DNA of 23,387 nucleotides from a virus. Shown here one piece after another: positions 11,650 to 22,115 of the stretch (within the stretch, counting starts at the first letter, position 1; each line of letters opens with the position of its first letter). A model generated the notes under the pieces. The model was not told the DNA's origin. It ran no database searches and saw only the letters and a program-made list of their open reading frames with translations. A program made the position numbers and the translations under genes. The stretch lies in the IMG/VR virus record IMGVR_UViG_3300024507_000245, positions 1-23,387 of that record, one strand, 5' to 3'.

Positions 11650-13509
11650 CTAGATGAACTGTCTGTCTTTTTCAGCAAGTAGTTCATCGATATTGATGAC
11701 CATTCGCTTGCCTTTTTCATAACGTGATAAGAATGGATTCTTGAGATGATGCGTCTGGTGAATGCCTTGGTTGAGCCATTCACGTACTTTGATTTCACAG
11801 AACCACAAGGCCATCACCATATCGGTCTTACCCTTAGTGGTAGGTGACCAGGTAATAAGTTGCTCTATCAAACTCTTGATATTTTCTGTCTGGTCAGATG
11901 GAAGATGAATCAGATTATCTCTGTGATGCTTTCCATCAGGTTGCTTGGTTCCAAAGAGTGTGGACATAGAAGCCACACCGAAACCTGCATCCCACTTGTT
12001 ATTACCAGTGTTGTGCTCTCTTAGGACAGTTCCTTTGGATGCAAGGAATTGTCTAATTCCCTCATCTTGCGTGAGAAAAGATTGAAAGGCGTTACGCTCC
12101 ACGATCCATTCCGATGGTGCATATACGTTAGTCCAATCGGTAATGAGTTGTCGGATTTGTGCAGGCGTAGGACGCGTAATCTTGATAGCGTCCACAATGT
12201 AGCGCTTATGAGAAGTCCTATCAACCGCATAACATACTGCCGCTGTGTCTCCGACCATTGCTGGGTCCAGTCCACAAACAAAACTGAAACCGTTGAGGTC
12301 TTTGGGATGACCTGGACTGCCAGGCACCAATCGACCTGCTTTTCGCATTCCATCAATGGAGCCTTTCACGCAGACTGGATCAAAGATTGCATCATCAGAT
12401 ATATCTTGCTGTTGATAAATCAAAGCCCACGTACTAGCGTCCATAGCCTGACGCTCGTTGTAAAGGTTGCGCCCATTCCATCTAGGCCACAAGCCTTCTT
12501 CTGTCTTCTGCTCTTCAGGTTGACCATCAAAGGGTTGGTCTGAATAAGGCCAGAGAGTGACCCACTTATCGGGGTTCTCATTGGCTTCCAATAGGGCTGG
12601 CATCGCTAAATAGGTCCAAGGGACAAGGCCACCAGGGTATCTATCGGGAGAACGTAGTTCTTTGTATAAATCTACAGCAGATACGCGGGTACCGATAACG
12701 ATGAGCTTGCCTGTCGGGTTGAGACGGGATCGTACATCTTGGGTAAGCCACTTGATCTGTCGTTCAAAGTCATTTGCGTTAGACAAGGTAACTGCGTCAT
12801 CTATCAGGATCATATCGGCACGTTTACCGTAAATCTGACCGCCGATACCGACTGCCTCGATATTTGGGTCCTTCTCAGATGACTCTCTGAGTTCATCACC
12901 GAAGGTGACGCGGGTAGCCTGCCAGGAGGCTGTCTTAGATTTGAACCCAACCCCAGCGGCATATGCCTGCTGTAGTTCTTCGTACATTGGATGCGTCAGT
13001 CGCTGCTTGATAGCATAAAGGAAGTCTGCGGCTAGACGCTGGGTTTGGGAAACTATGAGAACTCTAAAGTTCGGGTTATTGACAATCTTCCACGTAACGT
13101 AGTCAACGGTGACCGTAATCGACTTGGCGTGGTTGGGAGGAATGTTGATAAGGATACGGTTATCTGCCAGACCCTTTTCGTACTTCATTGACGGATGGAG
13201 CCAACTGGGGTCTCTGCCTTCAATAACATCTATCAGGTTCTGCTGATGTGGAAAGGTTCTGGAACGCAGGAAGCGTTCACGGAACTGAGCAAAGGTCAGT
13301 TCATCTAAGGTCTTCTCTATAAAGGAAGCCCCACGTAAACCTAGGCGGGTTCTATCAACTTTATCTTTGAAAGCGGGATCGGTACGGCGGTAATACTCAT
13401 AGGACTTGTAGCTCTTACCAGCAGAAGCGACAGCCTGCTCTACCGTCATACCTTCTGCGATAGCAGATAGGATAACTCGCTTGGCTATATCGGAGGTATT
13501 CTCTGGCAT
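11650..13509 (-). CDS. terL: Terminase large subunit
   Basis: Protein of 619 residues, the ATP-driven motor and nuclease for DNA packaging. Walker A-like PPNHAKS is at about residues 124-130, Walker B MILIDD at 233-238 and a coupling motif VIGTR at 271-275. The C-terminal RNase H-like nuclease has D415 (GLDPA), E471 (VERNAF) and D563 (KTDMVMA) as likely metal ligands. The N-terminal 50 residues (VEQAVASAGKSYKSYEYYRR) resemble a helix-turn-helix that may serve the DNA-recognition role of a small subunit. No separate small-subunit gene is seen nearby. ATG at 13509 follows TTAGGATG. It is the first gene of the leftward virion operon. Confidence 0.95.
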   Translation of the reverse strand: MPENTSDIAKRVILSAIAEGMTVEQAVASAGKSYKSYEYYRRTDPAFKDKVDRTRLGLRGASFIEKTLDELTFAQFRERFLRSRTFPHQQNLIDVIEGRDPSWLHPSMKYEKGLADNRILINIPPNHAKSITVTVDYVTWKIVNNPNFRVLIVSQTQRLAADFLYAIKQRLTHPMYEELQQAYAAGVGFKSKTASWQATRVTFGDELRESSEKDPNIEAVGIGGQIYGKRADMILIDDAVTLSNANDFERQIKWLTQDVRSRLNPTGKLIVIGTRVSAVDLYKELRSPDRYPGGLVPWTYLAMPALLEANENPDKWVTLWPYSDQPFDGQPEEQKTEEGLWPRWNGRNLYNERQAMDASTWALIYQQQDISDDAIFDPVCVKGSIDGMRKAGRLVPGSPGHPKDLNGFSFVCGLDPAMVGDTAAVCYAVDRTSHKRYIVDAIKITRPTPAQIRQLITDWTNVYAPSEWIVERNAFQSFLTQDEGIRQFLASKGTVLREHNTGNNKWDAGFGVASMSTLFGTKQPDGKHHRDNLIHLPSDQTENIKSLIEQLITWSPTTKGKTDMVMALWFCEIKVREWLNQGIHQTHHLKNPFLSRYEKGKRMVINIDELLAEKDRQFI

Positions 13510-13527
13510 TTCATCCTAACGGGTTCT

Positions 13528-13540
13528 GGGCAGAATACAC
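13528..13540 (-). promoter_or_regulatory. Candidate leftward promoter element before the terminase gene
   Basis: On the minus strand GTGTATTCTGCCC lies 19 bases before the terminase ATG. It resembles GTGTTATTCTGCTCC at the candidate rightward promoter near 14228, including a following AACC(C)GT. TATTCT could be a -10 element. No clear -35 hexamer is visible, so an extended or non-housekeeping promoter would be needed. Confidence 0.35.
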
Positions 13541-13546
13541 CCAACT

Positions 13547-13569
13547 AAAAGAGGCTCCGCTTGAGCCTC
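13547..13569 (-). terminator. Stem-loop terminator upstream of the terminase promoter (minus strand)
   Basis: GAGGCTC (13551-13557) pairs with GAGCCTC (13563-13569) around a five-base loop. On the minus strand the stem is followed by TTTT. It would stop leftward transcripts arriving from the origin region just before the presumed terminase promoter. Confidence 0.6.
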
Positions 13570-13586
13570 ATCATACGATTCGGCCT

Positions 13587-13672
13587 CGCTCCGCTAGGAG
13601 CGCTCACTGCTACCTCCCTAACGGGCGTAGCGTGAGCGTAGCGTCGCAAATGCCAGTGCGCCCCGCATTTGC
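13587..13672. repeat. Cluster of stem-loops and a direct repeat beside the terminase gene
   Basis: Three elements lie in tandem. CGCTCC/GGAGCG (13587-13592 and 13597-13602) form a six-base stem with a GCTA loop. GCGTAGCGT occurs twice, at 13625-13633 and 13636-13644, eleven bases apart. GCAAATGC (13646-13653) pairs perfectly with GCATTTGC (13665-13672). Such an array next to a terminase gene could be a packaging recognition site or a regulatory region. The sequence alone does not decide. Confidence 0.5.
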
Positions 13673-13695
13673 TCCTCTATACTGTATTAGGCAGG

Positions 13696-13723
13696 AAAAA
13701 AAAGCGGTTTCCCGCTTTTCTTT
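13696..13723. terminator. Bidirectional intrinsic terminator
   Basis: AAAAGCGG (13700-13707) pairs with CCGCTTTT (13712-13719) around TTTC. A-rich sequence flanks the left side and T-rich sequence the right side, so the structure can end transcription in both directions. It separates the leftward structural promoter area from the origin area. Confidence 0.8.
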
Positions 13724-13739
13724 CAAAAATCTTTATATT

Positions 13740-13755
13740 TGTGACTAACGTCACA
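13740..13755. promoter_or_regulatory. Perfect CRP/FNR-type operator (TGTGA-N6-TCACA)
   Basis: TGTGACTAACGTCACA matches the CRP-family consensus TGTGA-N6-TCACA at all ten fixed bases. In Actinobacteria this motif is bound by the cAMP receptor protein or GlxR. It lies at the A+T-rich edge of the origin region, next to TATAACTATACAAT, which offers -10-like hexamers without an ideal -35. The match is seen directly; binding is inferred. Confidence 0.65.
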
Positions 13756-13767
13756 GATATAACTATA

Positions 13768-13785
13768 CAATACGGACAATACGGA
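13768..13785. repeat. Tandem 9-bp direct repeat CAATACGGA
   Basis: Two exact, adjacent copies of CAATACGGA sit between the CRP-type site and the inverted repeats. Short tandem repeats beside DnaA boxes occur in origin unwinding regions. Only two copies are present, so this is weak evidence of function. Confidence 0.6.
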
Positions 13786-13792
13786 AAATGGA

Positions 13793-13828
13793 TCCACTTT
13801 AGTGGAGATATTTGTAGTGGGTACTACA
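13793..13828. promoter_or_regulatory. Two operator-like palindromes
   Basis: TCCACT-TT-AGTGGA (13793-13806) and TGTAGT-GGGT-ACTACA (13813-13828) are perfect six-base inverted repeats whose centres are about 21 bp apart, i.e. two helical turns. Both could bind dimeric regulators on one DNA face. No known operator consensus was recognised. Confidence 0.5.
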
Positions 13829-13833
13829 GACGG

Positions 13834-13860
13834 CCCCACGCGTGCGTAAAAAGCGTGGGG
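13834..13860. repeat. G+C-rich stem-loop beside the DnaA boxes
   Basis: CCCCACGC (13834-13841) pairs with GCGTGGGG (13853-13860) around an 11-base loop. The plus-strand sequence after the stem contains five T residues (13865-13869), so it could act as a terminator, but it also directly abuts the first DnaA box. Confidence 0.55.
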
Positions 13861-13865
13861 TAGGT

Positions 13866-13909
13866 TTTTCCACAGGTCTATCCACAGGTGTGGATAACCT
13901 TGTGGATAA
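13866..13909. other. Candidate replication origin: four DnaA boxes in a dyad
   Basis: TTTTCCACA (13866-13874) and CTATCCACA (13878-13886) each match the DnaA box TTATCCACA at eight of nine bases. TGTGGATAA (13889-13897 and 13901-13909) are perfect inverted copies. Boxes are 12 bp apart within each pair, and the pairs face each other around a centre at 13887-13888. An A+T-rich segment (13725-13790) lies nearby as a possible unwinding element. Host DnaA binding here would start or modulate phage replication. The plus-strand operon starts 380 bp to the right and the primase/helicase operon lies further right. Confidence 0.75.
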
Positions 13910-13917
13910 CTTAGCGT

Positions 13918-13944
13918 GGGGGATAGTGGGGGAAAGTGGTGGGG
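13918..13944 (+). other. G-rich tract next to the DnaA boxes
   Basis: Runs GGGGG (13918-13922), GGGGG (13928-13932), GG (13938-13939) and GGGG (13941-13944) lie nine bases after the last DnaA box. They could form a weak or two-layer G-quadruplex when single-stranded, or give strand asymmetry to the origin. Confidence 0.4.
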
Positions 13945-14013
13945 CTGACTACCCCTTCGGCGCTCTCTCTCACCTAACAATTCTTTTCTCGCCACTAATA
14001 AACGCCTGCAATT

Positions 14014-14167
14014 CCAGGCCGCTTTCACTGTCTCCAGCTTCCGCGCCGCCGCTGGATCTAGGCCATTACCCACCAGGCTTTCACTCTTTCGCCTGGTCCC
14101 TGGATCTTCCAGGCCTGGACCCTGGAAAGCTACGGCCCTGGCGCTTCCTTGGATCCGACAGGCCTGG
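14014..14167. repeat. Dense CCWGG cluster with nested palindromes
   Basis: Nine CCAGG/CCTGG pentamers start at 14014, 14073, 14092, 14099, 14109, 14114, 14121, 14137 and 14163. About 0.3 would be expected by chance in 154 bp. They form nested palindromes, including TCCAGGCCTGGA (14108-14119). CTGGAAAG recurs at 14122 and 14182. The segment could fold as RNA or be a protein-binding or methylation-rich site. No coding frame explains it. Confidence 0.6.
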
Positions 14168-14207
14168 CAGCTTCCGACACGCTGGAAAGAAAAGAATGCG
14201 GCCCCTA

Positions 14208-14236
14208 TTGCCTAGGGTAGGCTCCCGTGTTATTCT
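14208..14236 (+). promoter_or_regulatory. Candidate promoter of the rightward operon
   Basis: TTGCCT (14208-14213) and TATTCT (14231-14236) are separated by exactly 17 bp, four of six matches each to the sigma-70 consensus. It lies 55 bp before the first rightward gene. Transcription from about 14243 would place the stem-loop at 14247-14266 at the very 5-prime end of the mRNA. Confidence 0.5.
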
Positions 14237-14246
14237 GCTCCTAACC

Positions 14247-14266
14247 GTGAGCGCTCCCGCGCTTAC
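14247..14266 (+). promoter_or_regulatory. 5-prime leader stem-loop of the rightward operon
   Basis: GTGAGCGC pairs with GCGCTTAC (one G-U pair) around TCCC. Placed just downstream of the candidate promoter, it may protect the mRNA 5-prime end. It is followed by the GA-rich ribosome-binding segment AAAAGAGAGCTAAAAGA before the ATG. Confidence 0.5.
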
Positions 14267-14290
14267 ACCGTAGAAAAGAGAGCTAAAAGA

Positions 14291-14734
14291 ATGAATACAG
14301 AGACAGAAAAAAAGATCACTTTCGCTTGCACGTGTAACGGCTGCCGCCGCGTGCTGCCTATTGTTAGCCGCGCCTATCACCAGGGAGAACACTATCTCGA
14401 CAGCGTGACAGAAGGCCATTTTTTTAGTCCCGACACTATGCGCTTCTTTAGGTCCAAAATCTCCCACGTGGCCCTATTGAAAGAAGCGGGCGAAAGTGAT
14501 GAAGGCCTGGCCGTAATACTGTCCAATAAGAGAGACAGCGACACGCCACGCGAATATGAGCTGGTGACGATTTGTAAATGGGGACATATAACCAGGGAGC
14601 ACGAAGATTATTCGATCAAGTATTACGACAGCCTACGCCAGGCGCGTAAAGCCCTGGATGTTGCTACCTATCCGACAGGCTGCACGTGTCACGGCTGCAC
14701 GCTGGACCTATCAGAGAGAGCGCAATTAGATTAG
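14291..14734 (+). CDS. Unknown protein with terminal CxCxxC motifs (147 aa)
   Basis: First gene of the rightward operon, 147 residues. It carries matching cysteine motifs at both ends: C13-T-C15-N-G-C18 and C131-T-C133-H-G-C136. Between them is a domain with GHFFSPDTMRFFRSK (residues 42-56) and DYSIKYYDSLRQARKAL, a pattern I associate with small actinophage proteins of unknown function that open with an F-F-S-x-D-T motif. The paired cysteines could jointly hold one zinc or iron-sulfur centre. The leader has a GA-rich sequence rather than a canonical GGAGG. Codons are richer in G+C than those of the structural genes. Confidence 0.8.
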   Translation: MNTETEKKITFACTCNGCRRVLPIVSRAYHQGEHYLDSVTEGHFFSPDTMRFFRSKISHVALLKEAGESDEGLAVILSNKRDSDTPREYELVTICKWGHITREHEDYSIKYYDSLRQARKALDVATYPTGCTCHGCTLDLSERAQLD

Positions 14735-14830: not shown

Positions 14831-15439
14831 ATGAGCACAATTACAGAGAAGAAAGCAGACACGCTTACCGTAAGCGCGGAAAGCGTGCGCGAGCTATTAG
14901 CTGGCGCTGCTACCCAGGCCCACACGAAGGAAGATCTCCCCGCGTTGAATTGCGTGAAGATATACAGCGAGAGCGGCAGGCTGTACGCTGTCGCAACGGA
15001 CCGCTATCGTCTAATTGAAGGCAGCGTGGAAAGTGAAGGAGAGCTAGGCGAGACGATCCTACGCCTGGCAGATATAAAGCGGATCCTGGACCTATTGAAG
15101 GCTAAGAGCCTGGACCGTATGCCTGTCACAATAAACCGCGTCGGAGATCTCGTAAGCGTGGCAGTGGCAGGCGATAGTCTCACGGCCCGCACGTGGGACT
15201 GCAATTACCCGCCGCACGCTCAATTATTCCAGGCTGGCGATCCCGTTGCAGTGGATAAAATTACTTTCAACCCTGCATTCTTCGCCGATTATGCGAAAGT
15301 GGAGAAGCTGGCAGGCCGCAAGGGATCTGCTGGCGTGACTGTCTCCTTCTATGGCGAGCGGAAGCCTATCGGGATACACCTAAACGGGGAGAAAGTGGCC
15401 TGGCGTGCGCTGCTAATGCCTATGCGTACGCAGGCTTAG
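14831..15439 (+). CDS. Shortened DNA polymerase sliding-clamp-like protein (DnaN-like, 202 aa)
   Basis: DnaN clamps encircle DNA and tether polymerase. This 202-residue protein matches clamp signatures: LPALN.VKI, then ATDRYRL (55-61), the position of ATDxxRL in DnaN domain 2; FNPAFF (146-151), like FNPxYL of domain 3; and a clamp-like end LLMPMR (194-199). Bacterial DnaN is about 370-400 residues in three domains. By alignment in the head, this one has about three half-domain repeats, so domain 1 and half of domain 3 appear absent. It may form an unusual ring, bind the host clamp, or recruit host clamp-binding proteins. It is preceded by leader A and a GA-rich ribosome-binding site. Confidence 0.75.
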   Translation: MSTITEKKADTLTVSAESVRELLAGAATQAHTKEDLPALNCVKIYSESGRLYAVATDRYRLIEGSVESEGELGETILRLADIKRILDLLKAKSLDRMPVTINRVGDLVSVAVAGDSLTARTWDCNYPPHAQLFQAGDPVAVDKITFNPAFFADYAKVEKLAGRKGSAGVTVSFYGERKPIGIHLNGEKVAWRALLMPMRTQA

Positions 15440-17812: not shown

Positions 17813-17983
17813 TTTATCAGTTGAATAGAAGCCTGATCCCCTGAAGGCAATCGGGGGAGAGGACCAGACTCTATTCATTAGTTCACCGCAGTCAGCACAG
17901 GAGGGAGTGCTAGCTTCGGCGTGGATTGAACGCTCAGTGAAAGAGGTAACCGAGCAGTTCGGACATTTATATTCGTAGATCAC
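17810..17983 (-). CDS. FmdB-like zinc-ribbon protein (57 aa)
   Basis: GTG at 17983 overlaps the sigma-like gene stop by four bases (GTGA). The 57 residues fit the FmdB family: MIYEYKCPNC at the start, C7, C10, C29 and C32 as zinc ligands, and the hallmark end FRGSGFYSTDK. FmdB proteins are small zinc ribbons, often called putative regulators, with no settled function. It is the last gene of the leftward replication and regulation operon. Confidence 0.85.
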   Translation of the reverse strand: MIYEYKCPNCSVTSFTERSIHAEASTPSCADCGELMNRVWSSPPIAFRGSGFYSTDK

Positions 17984-18612
17984 TGATAAGGACTTTCGCC
18001 ACCGAGATTATTCTGTAATCTGCGTAGAGAATTCTGACATCTACGATCAGCAGTAGAGACGGCGCACTCTAGGTATGAAGCTAACTCTTGAAGAGTAAGG
18101 TTCTCGTGGTATCTCTTGATGAGAATATCTTTATCCACCACATCTAGTTTGAGGTATGCCTTCTTGATGTCAATAAGCGTGGCAAGTAGGTTGCCACCTT
18201 CAGCAGGAGCAGACTGCTTCTTTGGTTGCCCATCGTTGATGAGATTCTGTGCCTGTTCCAACACTGTGTTATCTACTACCGATGCTATGACGTGGGGTAA
18301 GAGCTGGGCTATGACGACAGTATCGTAGAAGGCTTCGTCCCCTGGTTTATATCCTGTGCGTACAGCTTTTTCTTTGCGGGCGTAGCGTTCAGCACTGCGC
18401 TTCATCTGCCACGCGATACGCTTCTCATTGATGACTCGCTGGACTGTGGACTCTTCATTCAGTAGTCCGTCTAGATGAGTTGCTCTAGATAAATACCACG
18501 AGTAGCATTCTTGGATAACATCTTCTCGATCCACATACCCACGAAACCTACGCACAATAACGTTGGCTACGCTGGCTGTTATGTCAGGGATTGCTGGATG
18601 TAGTTCGCTCAT
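17980..18612 (-). CDS. Phage RNA polymerase sigma-like factor (210 aa)
   Basis: Resembles sigma-70 family factors that redirect host RNA polymerase. Residues 16-42 (ANVIVRRFRGYVDREDVIQE and onward) look like region 2. The last 54 residues form a region-4 helix-turn-helix: DVVDKDILIKRYHENLTLQE, then LASYLECAVSTADRRCQ with a recognition helix. The middle has a basic RYARKEKAVRTGYKPGDEAFY linker. The same overall layout is common among actinophage sigma-like proteins. Start ATG at 18612 lies inside the upstream 45-residue gene. It is a likely regulator of late phage genes; targets might carry the TATTCTGC element noted near 13530 and 14231. Confidence 0.8.
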   Translation of the reverse strand: MSELHPAIPDITASVANVIVRRFRGYVDREDVIQECYSWYLSRATHLDGLLNEESTVQRVINEKRIAWQMKRSAERYARKEKAVRTGYKPGDEAFYDTVVIAQLLPHVIASVVDNTVLEQAQNLINDGQPKKQSAPAEGGNLLATLIDIKKAYLKLDVVDKDILIKRYHENLTLQELASYLECAVSTADRRCQNSLRRLQNNLGGESPYQ

Positions 18613-18721: not shown

Positions 18722-19130
18722 TAGGAAGCTCGGGCCAGTTCTTATCGAGCACCATAATCGCAATGGCAGAGTAGTTCAATAAATCTACAAAGGAATCTCG
18801 AAGTGATTCGTTACTTGGCTTCACTCCATTATCAAGTAAATTATTTATCCTCGCTACCTTATCCCACATTCTTACACGAAGACCATTGAGTGGGCCACCA
18901 GGAGAACGTGCCACATTGAGGGGCCCGTAATCGTTGTGCTTACGAAGCAGAATCGTTCCAGCGGTATCAAACACTCGCCACATATCTTCAATAAACTTTT
19001 CGTTTATTCTCTTGCTGGCATCGGACGGCAGGTTATTATCCCAGTCTTGTAATCTATCGAGACTACTATCATCCCCATATCCGTCAATAATCTGACTGCC
19101 TCTTCGATGTCCTTTTTCTTGCTCACTCAC
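18714..19130 (-). CDS. DUF1599-like protein (138 aa)
   Basis: Protein of 138 residues with KHNDYG (64-69), N72, GLRVRMWDKVARI (83-95), and an ESLRDSFVDLLNYSAIA end. These match the conserved pattern of DUF1599, a domain found in phage and bacterial proteins and sometimes linked to nucleotide or DNA modification. Activity here is not known. GTG at 19130 overlaps the primase stop (GTGA) and has GGAGGAG upstream. Confidence 0.75.
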   Translation of the reverse strand: MSEQEKGHRRGSQIIDGYGDDSSLDRLQDWDNNLPSDASKRINEKFIEDMWRVFDTAGTILLRKHNDYGPLNVARSPGGPLNGLRVRMWDKVARINNLLDNGVKPSNESLRDSFVDLLNYSAIAIMVLDKNWPELPND

Positions 19131-19786
19131 GCTACTCCTCCTACTAGGTTGGCTGTTGCTTCTTTTCCATTCACCAGATAGAAGTCTGTTATGTCCATAC
19201 CTGGTGGTAATTGTACTATTTGTGAGTTTAGTACCTCACCTGCGACACGCCTAGAGAACTCAGCTCCAGGATTGGTGCCGTCTTCCTTGACATCATTGTC
19301 GCCAAGGATATAAACCATATCAAAACCATTGAATAACTTTGTATAAAAAGGTTTCCACGCAGCAACTCCTGGAACTCCTACTGCTGGTATACCTACGACT
19401 GCATCCATAATGATGGCATCGAACTCACCCTCACAGATAACGATACTCTTTGTTGGTGACATCGTTGCTATGACATTGAACAGATGAGACTTCTGTCCTA
19501 CTGGTGAACCATACTTAGGCTTTCCTTCATCAAGTCTTCTGAACTTGAAACCTACACAGATGTCTAACGCTGTGAAGTATGGAATAGAAATCCATCCCTC
19601 GTATCCTTGATGTCCCTCTATCGGATCGGTGATAGTGCCAAGGCGATAGCGAGCAGCAACCTCTTCAGATATTCCACGTCCTGCGAGATAGGCTAGAGCC
19701 TCGTCGCTTATTGCCTCCGCGTAATGATGAGCCGCCTCCTGTAACGATTTCGCCTGCTCTTGCGAGAGCATCCTTGAACCCCACAT
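19127..19786 (-). CDS. Primase, TOPRIM catalytic part (DnaG-like, 219 aa)
   Basis: Carries the TOPRIM domain of DnaG-type primases: CEGEFDA (118-124) with the catalytic Glu, and LGDND (161-165) with the metal-binding aspartates, followed by LPPGMDITDFY (193-203). The N-terminal EALAYLAGRGISEEVAARYRLG is the usual linker helix. It lacks the zinc finger, which is in the overlapping upstream frame. The start is uncertain: ATG 19786 or 19771, neither with a good ribosome-binding site. The 122-base overlap with the zinc-finger gene makes a fused product by +1 frameshifting conceivable. Confidence 0.85.
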   Translation of the reverse strand: MWGSRMLSQEQAKSLQEAAHHYAEAISDEALAYLAGRGISEEVAARYRLGTITDPIEGHQGYEGWISIPYFTALDICVGFKFRRLDEGKPKYGSPVGQKSHLFNVIATMSPTKSIVICEGEFDAIIMDAVVGIPAVGVPGVAAWKPFYTKLFNGFDMVYILGDNDVKEDGTNPGAEFSRRVAGEVLNSQIVQLPPGMDITDFYLVNGKEATANLVGGVA

Positions 19787-20042
19787 TCTCTAATTCCATA
19801 ATGACATTGACCGCATTGCCACCCTTGCCACAGGTGTGACAGTAATACAGATTGTTATACGTATCGATGACTGCACTCTTGCGAGAGTCATCGTGCATAC
19901 AACAGCGCACCGATATGTTGCGCCCCTCTTTTACCTCTCCTCCAAAGTGCCTGACTACTTCAGCTATGGAGACTGTGTTTGCATCGGAGTTGGCTTTTGT
20001 CCTCTTCGTACGAACCACCCTGGACCAGTCTTGTGCTGGCAT
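19665..20042 (-). CDS. Primase zinc-finger part (CHC2 type, 125 aa)
   Basis: Zinc-binding module that helps DnaG recognise DNA. Ligands are C47, H50, C68 and C71 (VRCCMHDD and YYCHTCGKGGNAVN), the normal CHC2 pattern. Start ATG 20042 has AAGGAG seven bases upstream, better than a TTG at 20048. The tail after residue 98 (GEIVTGGGSSLRGGNKRRGS) has no family resemblance, while the other frame over the same bases encodes normal primase sequence. Confidence 0.85.
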   Translation of the reverse strand: MPAQDWSRVVRTKRTKANSDANTVSIAEVVRHFGGEVKEGRNISVRCCMHDDSRKSAVIDTYNNLYYCHTCGKGGNAVNVIMELENVGFKDALARAGEIVTGGGSSLRGGNKRRGSSLSRRTWNI

Positions 20043-20140
20043 CCGCAATCTCCTTCGCAGTTCTGGTGAAAATCTTTAGCCATATCGTACTTACCGATAG
20101 TGTTGTGGTGACCTGCCCACATACATTTACTGCAAATCAT
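19964..20140 (-). CDS. Zinc-ribbon-like mini-protein (58 aa)
   Basis: ATG at 20140 overlaps the previous stop (ATGA) and follows GGAGGAAGA. The 58 residues contain MICSKCMWAGHH and NCEGDCGCQH, so C3, C6 and a later cysteine cluster could bind zinc. The end is basic (WFVRRGQKPTP). It overlaps the primase zinc-finger gene by 79 bases in another frame. Confidence 0.65.
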   Translation of the reverse strand: MICSKCMWAGHHNTIGKYDMAKDFHQNCEGDCGCQHKTGPGWFVRRGQKPTPMQTQSP

Positions 20141-20836: not shown

Positions 20837-21002
20837 TACGACCTCTCAGGTATTGTGCTGCTTCAGGAAAACCAGCCTTCTCTAACTCTGCTGCTAGATA
20901 ACTCATATGATATTTATATGCGCTGTCTAGACCAGCATTCCAACCCTTATCAAACTGAGTTGTAGCGTATTGATGATATTCTGGTTTTAGTTTTACACTC
21001 AT
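20823..21002 (-). CDS. Small protein of unknown function (59 aa)
   Basis: ATG at 21002 overlaps the helicase-like gene stop (ATGA). The 59 residues are helical: KPEYHQYATTQFDKGWNAGL, then YKYHMSYLAAELEKAG and a short end. It ends inside the next gene. No family was recognised. Confidence 0.6.
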   Translation of the reverse strand: MSVKLKPEYHQYATTQFDKGWNAGLDSAYKYHMSYLAAELEKAGFPEAAQYLRGRSEQL

Positions 21003-21835
21003 AAAACCCTCGATAGATTTGAGTTGTAGACCATCCTGCCGTAAGCATCGCTGTCATTGATATGACAGGTAGCAAAGTTTACGAAGAGTCCTACGTAATC
21101 CTTGCCGTCAGCTTGGTGTTCTCCAAAACGATTCTTGACTGCTGCAACCCGAAGCGTATGCTCAAACGGGTTGTAGCCAAGAGTAAGTATCATCGCGGGT
21201 AACTGGCTCACCTTGCCGTGAATAGCACGACGTGCTGGTGGTTCAGTCATATCCTTACCATACTCACTCTGTTCTGATACGTGGTGCAGAACAAGCACGC
21301 AGGCTTCTGTCTTGCGTGCCATATCGTGTAGCTCCATCATTATTTGACGTAAGCCTGCCCACTCATTATCAGATTCAGCGACGACGTTCATCAGGTTATC
21401 TATGATAATCAGTTGTGGACTGATCCCATAGAGTTCAATGTAGGCCTTTACCTCTGCCTCAATATCATCAAGGTTCGGTGATGAATCAAAGACCCACTGT
21501 ATATGTGATATGTCCTGTAGGTTCTCATCATAAGCACCAGTATTGATGCTGATTTGATTCTCTACAGTTTCTTGGGTGTGACCTGCTAGATGTGCCGAAG
21601 CACGTAGCATCACAGTAGCGGCATCAGTATCAGCCGAGAAGAACAGAGTAGGCACCTTGGCCTTGATAGCATACACAAGAGCGAACATAGACTTTCCAGC
21701 GTTAGGTGCAGCGGCAACCATACACACTTGACCGCGCCGAAACTTTATGCCCTTTTTGTCTAGGTCTTTCCACACAGTCGGAAGTGGCTGCGCCAATGTA
21801 TGTGCAGTCTTCCAAGCGCGGTCTAACCTAAGCAC
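20999..21835 (-). CDS. DnaB/RecA-like replicative helicase-type ATPase (278 aa)
   Basis: RecA-fold ATPase, probably the phage replicative helicase core. Walker A is APNAGKS (43-49), Walker B LIIID (142-146), a LHH motif near 183-185 and KNRFG (234-238) near the likely arginine finger. At 278 residues it is the ATPase domain without the DnaB N-terminal part, common in actinophages. GTG at 21835 has GGGAGG upstream and overlaps the WhiB gene by eight bases. The primase lies downstream in the same operon. Confidence 0.85.
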   Translation of the reverse strand: MLRLDRAWKTAHTLAQPLPTVWKDLDKKGIKFRRGQVCMVAAAPNAGKSMFALVYAIKAKVPTLFFSADTDAATVMLRASAHLAGHTQETVENQISINTGAYDENLQDISHIQWVFDSSPNLDDIEAEVKAYIELYGISPQLIIIDNLMNVVAESDNEWAGLRQIMMELHDMARKTEACVLVLHHVSEQSEYGKDMTEPPARRAIHGKVSQLPAMILTLGYNPFEHTLRVAAVKNRFGEHQADGKDYVGLFVNFATCHINDSDAYGRMVYNSNLSRVL

Positions 21836-22115
21836 TTTCCTCCCGTCGTAAAACTATATTTCTCTGTCTTCTTATCCGTTTACGGTCGTACTCTGAAAGT
21901 CCACCCCAGATTCCGTAAATCTCATTGTTGATTCCGTACTCTGCACAGTCAACTTGATGCTCACAGTTGTTACAAATACTTCGAGCGTAAACGGCTTCTG
22001 GAGCTTTTCCAAGTCCTTGTTCAGGAAACCAGAAGTCGCCACCTGATTGAGCGCAGAGAGGATTCTCGTATTCACGAGGCTCTCGCATACATCTAGCGAA
22101 CCCAGATAGTTGCAC
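21828..22115 (-). CDS. WhiB-family transcriptional regulator (95 aa)
   Basis: Wbl proteins bind a 4Fe-4S cluster and contact host sigma factor to alter transcription. Here the ligands are C21, C48, C51 and C57 (CAQSGGDFWFPE and CNNCEHQVDC), followed by the hallmark GIWGG turn (68-72) and a basic tail (RKRIRRQR). The start could be GTG 22115, which overlaps the previous gene by 23 bases, or ATG 22088; neither has a strong ribosome-binding site. It supports an actinobacterial host and probably acts in gene control together with the sigma-like factor. Confidence 0.93.
   Translation of the reverse strand: MQLSGFARCMREPREYENPLCAQSGGDFWFPEQGLGKAPEAVYARSICNNCEHQVDCAEYGINNEIYGIWGGLSEYDRKRIRRQRNIVLRREESA

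Follow-up and report, generated by a model that had tools for sequence, protein, structure and literature searches.

In this study, we found that a phage genome fragment carries a compact array of four DnaA boxes 5' of its terminase large subunit gene (terL), and that arrays of this type recur at the same place in many related phages. The window, meaning the whole stretch of DNA analysed (23,387 nucleotides), is a 23.4-kb virus record and a fragment. At the level of sequence, the comparison with relatives showed a selected, optional, all-or-none and mostly one-directional DnaA-type array resembling the DnaA sites of host chromosomes, and the array of the window is very probably a real, although predicted, site for host DnaA. 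We suggest, with a probability of roughly 45%, that the array is a docking site for host DnaA that serves as an optional aid when phage replication starts near the genome junction. The array consists of the following boxes.

13866-13874, plus strand: DnaA-like box TTTTCCACA, 8/9 match, inverted relative to the perfect pair
13878-13886, plus strand: DnaA-like box CTATCCACA, 8/9 match, inverted relative to the perfect pair
13889-13897, minus strand: perfect DnaA box TTATCCACA, 9/9, inner half of a direct pair with 12-bp pitch
13901-13909, minus strand: perfect DnaA box TTATCCACA, 9/9, outer half of the same pair

The four boxes form a 44-bp dyad, which is an inverted repeat of 21+21 nt with arms that are 81% complementary and 2 nt apart. 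When boxes with at most one mismatch were counted per 50 bp, four were found within 50 bp, while the maximum was two in 1000 dinucleotide-preserving shuffles of the whole window. The inverted arrangement of two perfect TTATCCACA boxes and two eight-of-nine boxes at 13866-13909, which a preliminary description of this DNA had noted, is therefore present and clustered beyond chance. The regular 12-bp spacing mentioned there was seen inside each half of the dyad, but the pitch over its centre is 11 bp. Both strands of the dyad fold well as RNA (z -4.4), as an RNA-level element, either a hairpin or a bidirectional terminator, would do. However, no T-run follows the dyad, and most relatives have direct pairs only, which are unable to form such a hairpin; the hairpin reading was rejected on this ground, and we regard a role at the RNA level as very improbable.

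The array lies between two divergent arms, as described before, with terL on one side and ORFs from 14291 on the plus strand on the other. The genes that bear on its interpretation are as follows.

11650-13509, minus strand: terL, terminase large subunit (PHROG 38, E 6e-64)
14831-15439, plus strand: short sliding-clamp-like protein of 202 aa (Pfam DNA_pol3_beta_2, E 5e-7), across the array from terL
17980-18612: phage sigma factor
19127-20048, minus strand: primase in two overlapping ORFs (Toprim 19127-19786; zinc ribbon 19665-20048)
20999-21835, minus strand: DnaB-like helicase (PHROG 243, E 3e-76)
21828-22115, minus strand: WhiB-family regulator (Pfam Whib, E 3e-12), a marker of an actinobacterial host

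A Cas4-type exonuclease and a RusA-like resolvase are also encoded, and neither an Rfam family nor a tRNA was found in the window. The best matches of TerL were phages filed as ct2KA10 (46%) and Streptomyces Beephvirinae (42-43%), and the portal matches were confined to these two groups. The ct2KA10 records bear the names LanE43-AprE7 and LanE43-AprF5 and are the Planktophila phages E7 and F5, which were isolated on a freshwater Nanopelagicales host (PMC10202952). They are the nearest cultured relatives and have TerL (46%), portal (50%), whiB, the sigma factor and a freshwater actinobacterial host in common with the window; unlike the window, phage E7 is without clustered TTATCCACA boxes. The window is thus a member of a freshwater actinophage family related to the Streptomyces Beephvirinae and the Planktophila phages. 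Its host is very likely an actinobacterium, and we infer that it belongs to the Nanopelagicales; a search of bacterial genomes with TerL for the host gave no relative.

Relatives gathered by TerL fell into three clades (A, B and C), of which clade C has a TerL only about 45% identical to that of the window, and the 700-1000 bp 5' of terL were compared with sequence elsewhere. In the 55 dereplicated loci of clade A, 19 perfect boxes were found in 38.5 kb 5' of terL against 6 in 489 kb elsewhere; for this comparison, 400 permuted 9-mers of the same composition gave a mean upstream count of 0.34 and a largest count of 11. When all clade loci were taken, the figures were 75 in 70.6 kb against 0 in 271 kb for clade B, and 24 in 68 kb against 0 in 282 kb for clade C. 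At least two perfect boxes stand 5' of terL in 37 of the 135 dereplicated relatives of all sets, so that the earlier remark that few phages show such an arrangement is wrong for the family of the window. In these 37 loci, 90 perfect boxes lie 5' of terL, whereas the 136 kb downstream contain none. Moreover, when all viral contigs were scanned for box arrays without regard to terL, members of the family came up once more, with the array directly 5' of terL. These observations show that the boxes have been selected at this place in the relatives. The open-licence papers searched did not describe DnaA arrays for phages of this family. Host DnaA sites are already known in some phages, but here an oriC-style array is repeatedly gained and lost at one place.

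In the 94 loci without a perfect box, one-mismatch boxes were not enriched either (0.20 vs 0.45 per kb), so that the array is either there or absent. In the family, the boxes usually come as a direct pair; of 52 spacings, 19 have a pitch of 12 bp, more than any other, and 9 have the next most frequent pitch, 20 bp. Among the dereplicated boxed loci, 86 of 94 boxes face terL and 8 face away. The perfect boxes of the window are a typical direct pair of the family, with a 12-bp pitch and facing terL. On the other hand, the inverted imperfect half is a special feature of the window and is uncommon in the family, with similar quads in L059 and in the distant relative L418.

The preliminary description had read the region as a candidate for a compact replication origin, and the patchy distribution of the array bears directly on this claim. 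On the TerL tree, the presence of the array switches at least 22 times, compared with a mean of 32.8 and a minimum of 27 for shuffled labels; by this pattern the array is inherited over short times and often gained or lost. The 37.2-kb contig G001 is close to the window in TerL (96% identical), helicase (97.8%), primase (96.3%) and exonuclease (99%), and it has no box cluster anywhere. In L003, the clamp is 95% identical and the flanks are nearly the same, but the sequence between them is different and lacks boxes. The conservation of the boxes in related phages, which had been put forward as a check, is thus lost in both despite near-identical genes. Three further relatives (G027, G030 and G034), whose contig ends overlap and which are probably complete genomes closing as circles, have no perfect box in the whole contig. 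Since near-identical relatives and circular genomes do without boxes, the array cannot be the required origin of the replication module. It is neither required by that module nor kept with it, and is an optional add-on and not the essential origin of the family, so that the reading as a compact origin fails as stated.

In the window, as in seven long relatives, GC skew followed the orientation of the genes, so that it speaks neither for nor against an origin here. A tie between the clamp gene and the boxes was rejected, because clamps were found both with and without boxes. No gene co-occurring with the array was found among 68 clusters in 17 genomes, a comparison of little power in which the best p value was 0.03 and not significant after correction. 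This best cluster is a C5 cytosine methyltransferase split in two ORFs (L219:1505-2711, L223:11174-12275), which occurred only in boxed genomes (3/6 vs 0/11, not significant).

The array is found in a hypervariable slot with conserved edges, which has the following parts.

13796-13813, minus strand: conserved block AAATATCTCCACTAAAGT, right edge of the slot, resembling AAATTTCCACCATAAAT just past the Beephvirinae terminal repeat
13823-13945: hypervariable slot with the array, predicted direct terminal repeat (edges accurate to about 10 bp)
13834-13860: inverted repeat CCCCACGC / GCGTGGGG, where most relatives have ACCC-N-TGATTAAA
13946-13963, minus strand: conserved block A (GCGCCGAAGGGGTAGTCA, terL sense), left edge of the slot, from the alignment of relatives

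The interior of the slot is about 120-140 bp long and differs between near-identical phages, even in a 95% relative, while the edges are conserved. The ACCC-N-TGATTAAA motif stands, in most relatives, 33-36 nt ahead of the right (terL-side) edge. Six Streptomyces Beephvirinae with deposited physical ends (WRightOn, Manuel, Immanuel3, FlowerPower, Dennebes and Stella) have direct terminal repeats of 253-276 bp at the same place 5' of terL. About 40 nt separate ACCCGGGGGTTGTTAAAC-type motifs from the end of these repeats, after which come AAATTTCCACCATAAATAC and a CRP-type palindrome, the latter located just inside the left arm as in the window. A seventh relative, Abafar, has a deposited repeat of 396 bp, the edges of which are shifted. 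Because its position and edge motifs match those of the Beephvirinae repeats, 13823-13945 is predicted to be a terminal repeat, and the slot holding the array may lie in the terminal repeat of the phage. The predicted repeat differs from those of the Beephvirinae in its length (about 123 bp) and in having a DnaA-box array. Several metagenome contigs close as circles, as would be expected from headful packaging as well as from a terminal repeat. Starts of contigs were also seen near both slot edges, 10-25 nt outside; we rejected them as proof of physical termini, since assembly breaks at a variable region would give the same starts.

This position also fits another explanation, in which the boxes only resemble DnaA boxes, bind a different protein such as terminase or a phage regulator, and serve the formation of DNA ends in the terminal repeat. 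However, the selected word is the exact DnaA consensus, and no one-mismatch variant is enriched in the box-less loci. The terminal repeats of Beephvirinae, moreover, do without a box array, and some relatives with a near-identical TerL are without boxes. We therefore regard it as improbable that a protein other than DnaA is bound.

Between the slot and terL, and at the far edge of the slot, there are several elements other than boxes.

13695-13724, minus strand: hairpin and T-run (GCGGGAAACCGC then T8) 5' of terL (-17.7 kcal/mol, z -4.5), kept in relatives
13740-13755: CRP/GlxR-type palindrome TGTGACTAACGTCACA, inside the A+T-rich stretch
13767-13775 and 13776-13784, minus strand: tandem 9-mers ACAATACGG (CCGTATTGT twice, terL sense), a conserved promoter-like block
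13916-13943, plus strand: G-rich tract (C-rich CACTTTCCCCCACTATCCCCCAC, terL sense), common to box-less relatives

The A+T-rich stretch, the 9-mers and the G-rich tract had been counted as parts of the origin candidate. They are present, but they also occur in box-less relatives and so are not parts of a box-centred unit; the A+T-rich block in particular is not linked to the boxes. The palindrome, the hairpin with its T-run and the 9-mers form a conserved control block whose presence does not depend on the boxes. GTGA-N6-TCAC was found 5' of terL in 97 of 135 relatives, compared with a mean of 2.7 and a best count of 30 for 255 other 4-mer pairs, and the CRP-type palindrome also stands 5' of terL in the Streptomyces and Planktophila phages. 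It suggests control of the late arm by a host regulator of the cAMP-receptor type. At 13671-13724, nearly all relatives have a conserved GCGGGAAA..TTT hairpin followed by CCTAATA-CAGTA, which may combine a terminator with a promoter recognised by the phage sigma factor. In many box-less relatives, C-rich repeats CACTTTCCCCC with a pitch of 10-12 bp were observed at one slot edge, and their other strand is G-quadruplex-capable.

The surroundings of the array also raise the question of whether DnaA acts here as a transcription regulator, which would tune the terL (late) or the rightward (early) promoter and tie phage timing to the DnaA state of the host, beside the CRP-type site. The array is in a divergent intergenic region and mostly faces terL, and the adjoining palindrome points to host regulators. 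In five relatives (L120, L155, L161, L180 and L079), a perfect pair is found at the same position, about -30/-18, where it overlaps the ribosome-binding site of terL; such a placement suits regulation no less than initiation. It is reported that DnaA stimulates transcription at the origin of phage lambda (PMC3985674), where host DnaA sites likewise lie beside the phage promoter/origin region. However, the distance between the array and terL shifts by several hundred bp among relatives, which is unusual for a promoter operator, and no sigma-70 promoter match was found in 13400-14400. We consider this explanation unlikely, but a serious rival. The present case differs from lambda in that no lambda O-type initiator was identified and the array is patchy and confined to a slot 5' of terL.

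A tandem-plus-inverted box pattern adjoins dnaA in a Ca. Nanopelagicales genome (L319: TTATCCACATGCTTATCCACAGGTGTGGAT) and in Rubrobacter (L268), and for this reason the phage array looks like a host DnaA site. The same pattern adjoins dnaB in a Microbacteriaceae genome; in L312, the gene beside the array is dnaB and not dnaA. The recruitment of host DnaA that had been proposed for this region is supported by the sequence data, as the boxes exceed chance, are focused 5' of terL in many relatives and have a pattern that adjoins dnaA in the Nanopelagicales. The box part of the bacterial basal unwinding system consists of two DnaA boxes in direct orientation, separated by no more than 3 bp (PMC8287927). 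The phage array shares with it the perfect TTATCCACA direct pair, with a 3-bp gap, and shares the layout found beside dnaA in the Nanopelagicales. It differs in being dispensable, in lacking a box-linked unwinding element and in showing no DnaA-trios by an insensitive test: a trio after the pair was found in 0 of 38 phage loci, and the same strict test was passed by only 2 of 118 bacterial array loci.

A small dispensable cluster of consensus and one-misfit boxes is also known in the datA locus of E. coli, where two boxes match the consensus and four have one misfit (PMC5835720). By analogy, the phage array could be a small datA-like sink that titrates DnaA, so that the rising phage copy number stops host initiation and the host is taken over, with no role in phage initiation. 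Its make-up of two consensus and two one-misfit boxes is close to that of datA, it is optional and mobile within the region as a sink would be, and the missing DnaA-trios agree with this idea. On the other hand, two to four boxes are few, and a sink requires neither the orientation bias of 86 vs 8 nor the confinement 5' of terL; the array differs from datA in this strong bias and in being phage-borne. We regard titration, too, as a serious rival, although a rather unlikely one.

We prefer the reading in which the host initiator DnaA docks at the four boxes, which occupy a swappable slot within the divergent control region 5' of terL. The functional core would be the perfect direct pair with its 12-bp pitch facing terL, and the imperfect inverted pair may strengthen or extend it. 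Host DnaA would bind the array cooperatively and help to open the adjacent DNA or to load the replisome early in infection. Such docking would be optional help for the phage's own helicase and primase and not an obligatory origin. The absence of a DnaA-trio, although the test is weak, and a replication module that works without the array in relatives both speak against an initiation aid. If the slot is a terminal repeat, as is possible, the packaged genome would have the array at each of its ends, and the circularised genome would have it at the junction. We can go further and suppose that the slot is both a terminal repeat and an exchangeable host-adaptation cassette, in which swapped-in one-directional oriC-style arrays let host DnaA start terL-ward replication at the circularised junction or copy the terminal repeat at packaging. 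This extended reading is quite unlikely. Abundant freshwater actinophages repeatedly gain and lose a one-directional DnaA array while keeping their own helicase and primase. The natural pairs with the array present or absent and near-identical replication genes pose directly the question of what the phage gains from host DnaA, and cultured Planktophila-group hosts and phages make a test feasible.

Some minor observations concern the replication genes and the host arrays. The 202-aa clamp-like protein (14831-15439) has a single recognised clamp domain and may be a cut-down clamp or a competitor of the host clamp. The two-ORF primase is annotated likewise in Beephvirinae, so that the split is not an error; its ORFs lie in different frames, so that a frameshift or a two-subunit primase is possible. 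In other actinobacteria, the same box pattern was found beside a rhomboid gene (also in L274 and L291), with crgA on the far side in the two cases checked (L249:1241-1270 and L295:2898-2927, where the array lies between the two genes). It is possible that this crgA/rhomboid array is a regulatory or titration locus of actinobacterial chromosomes.
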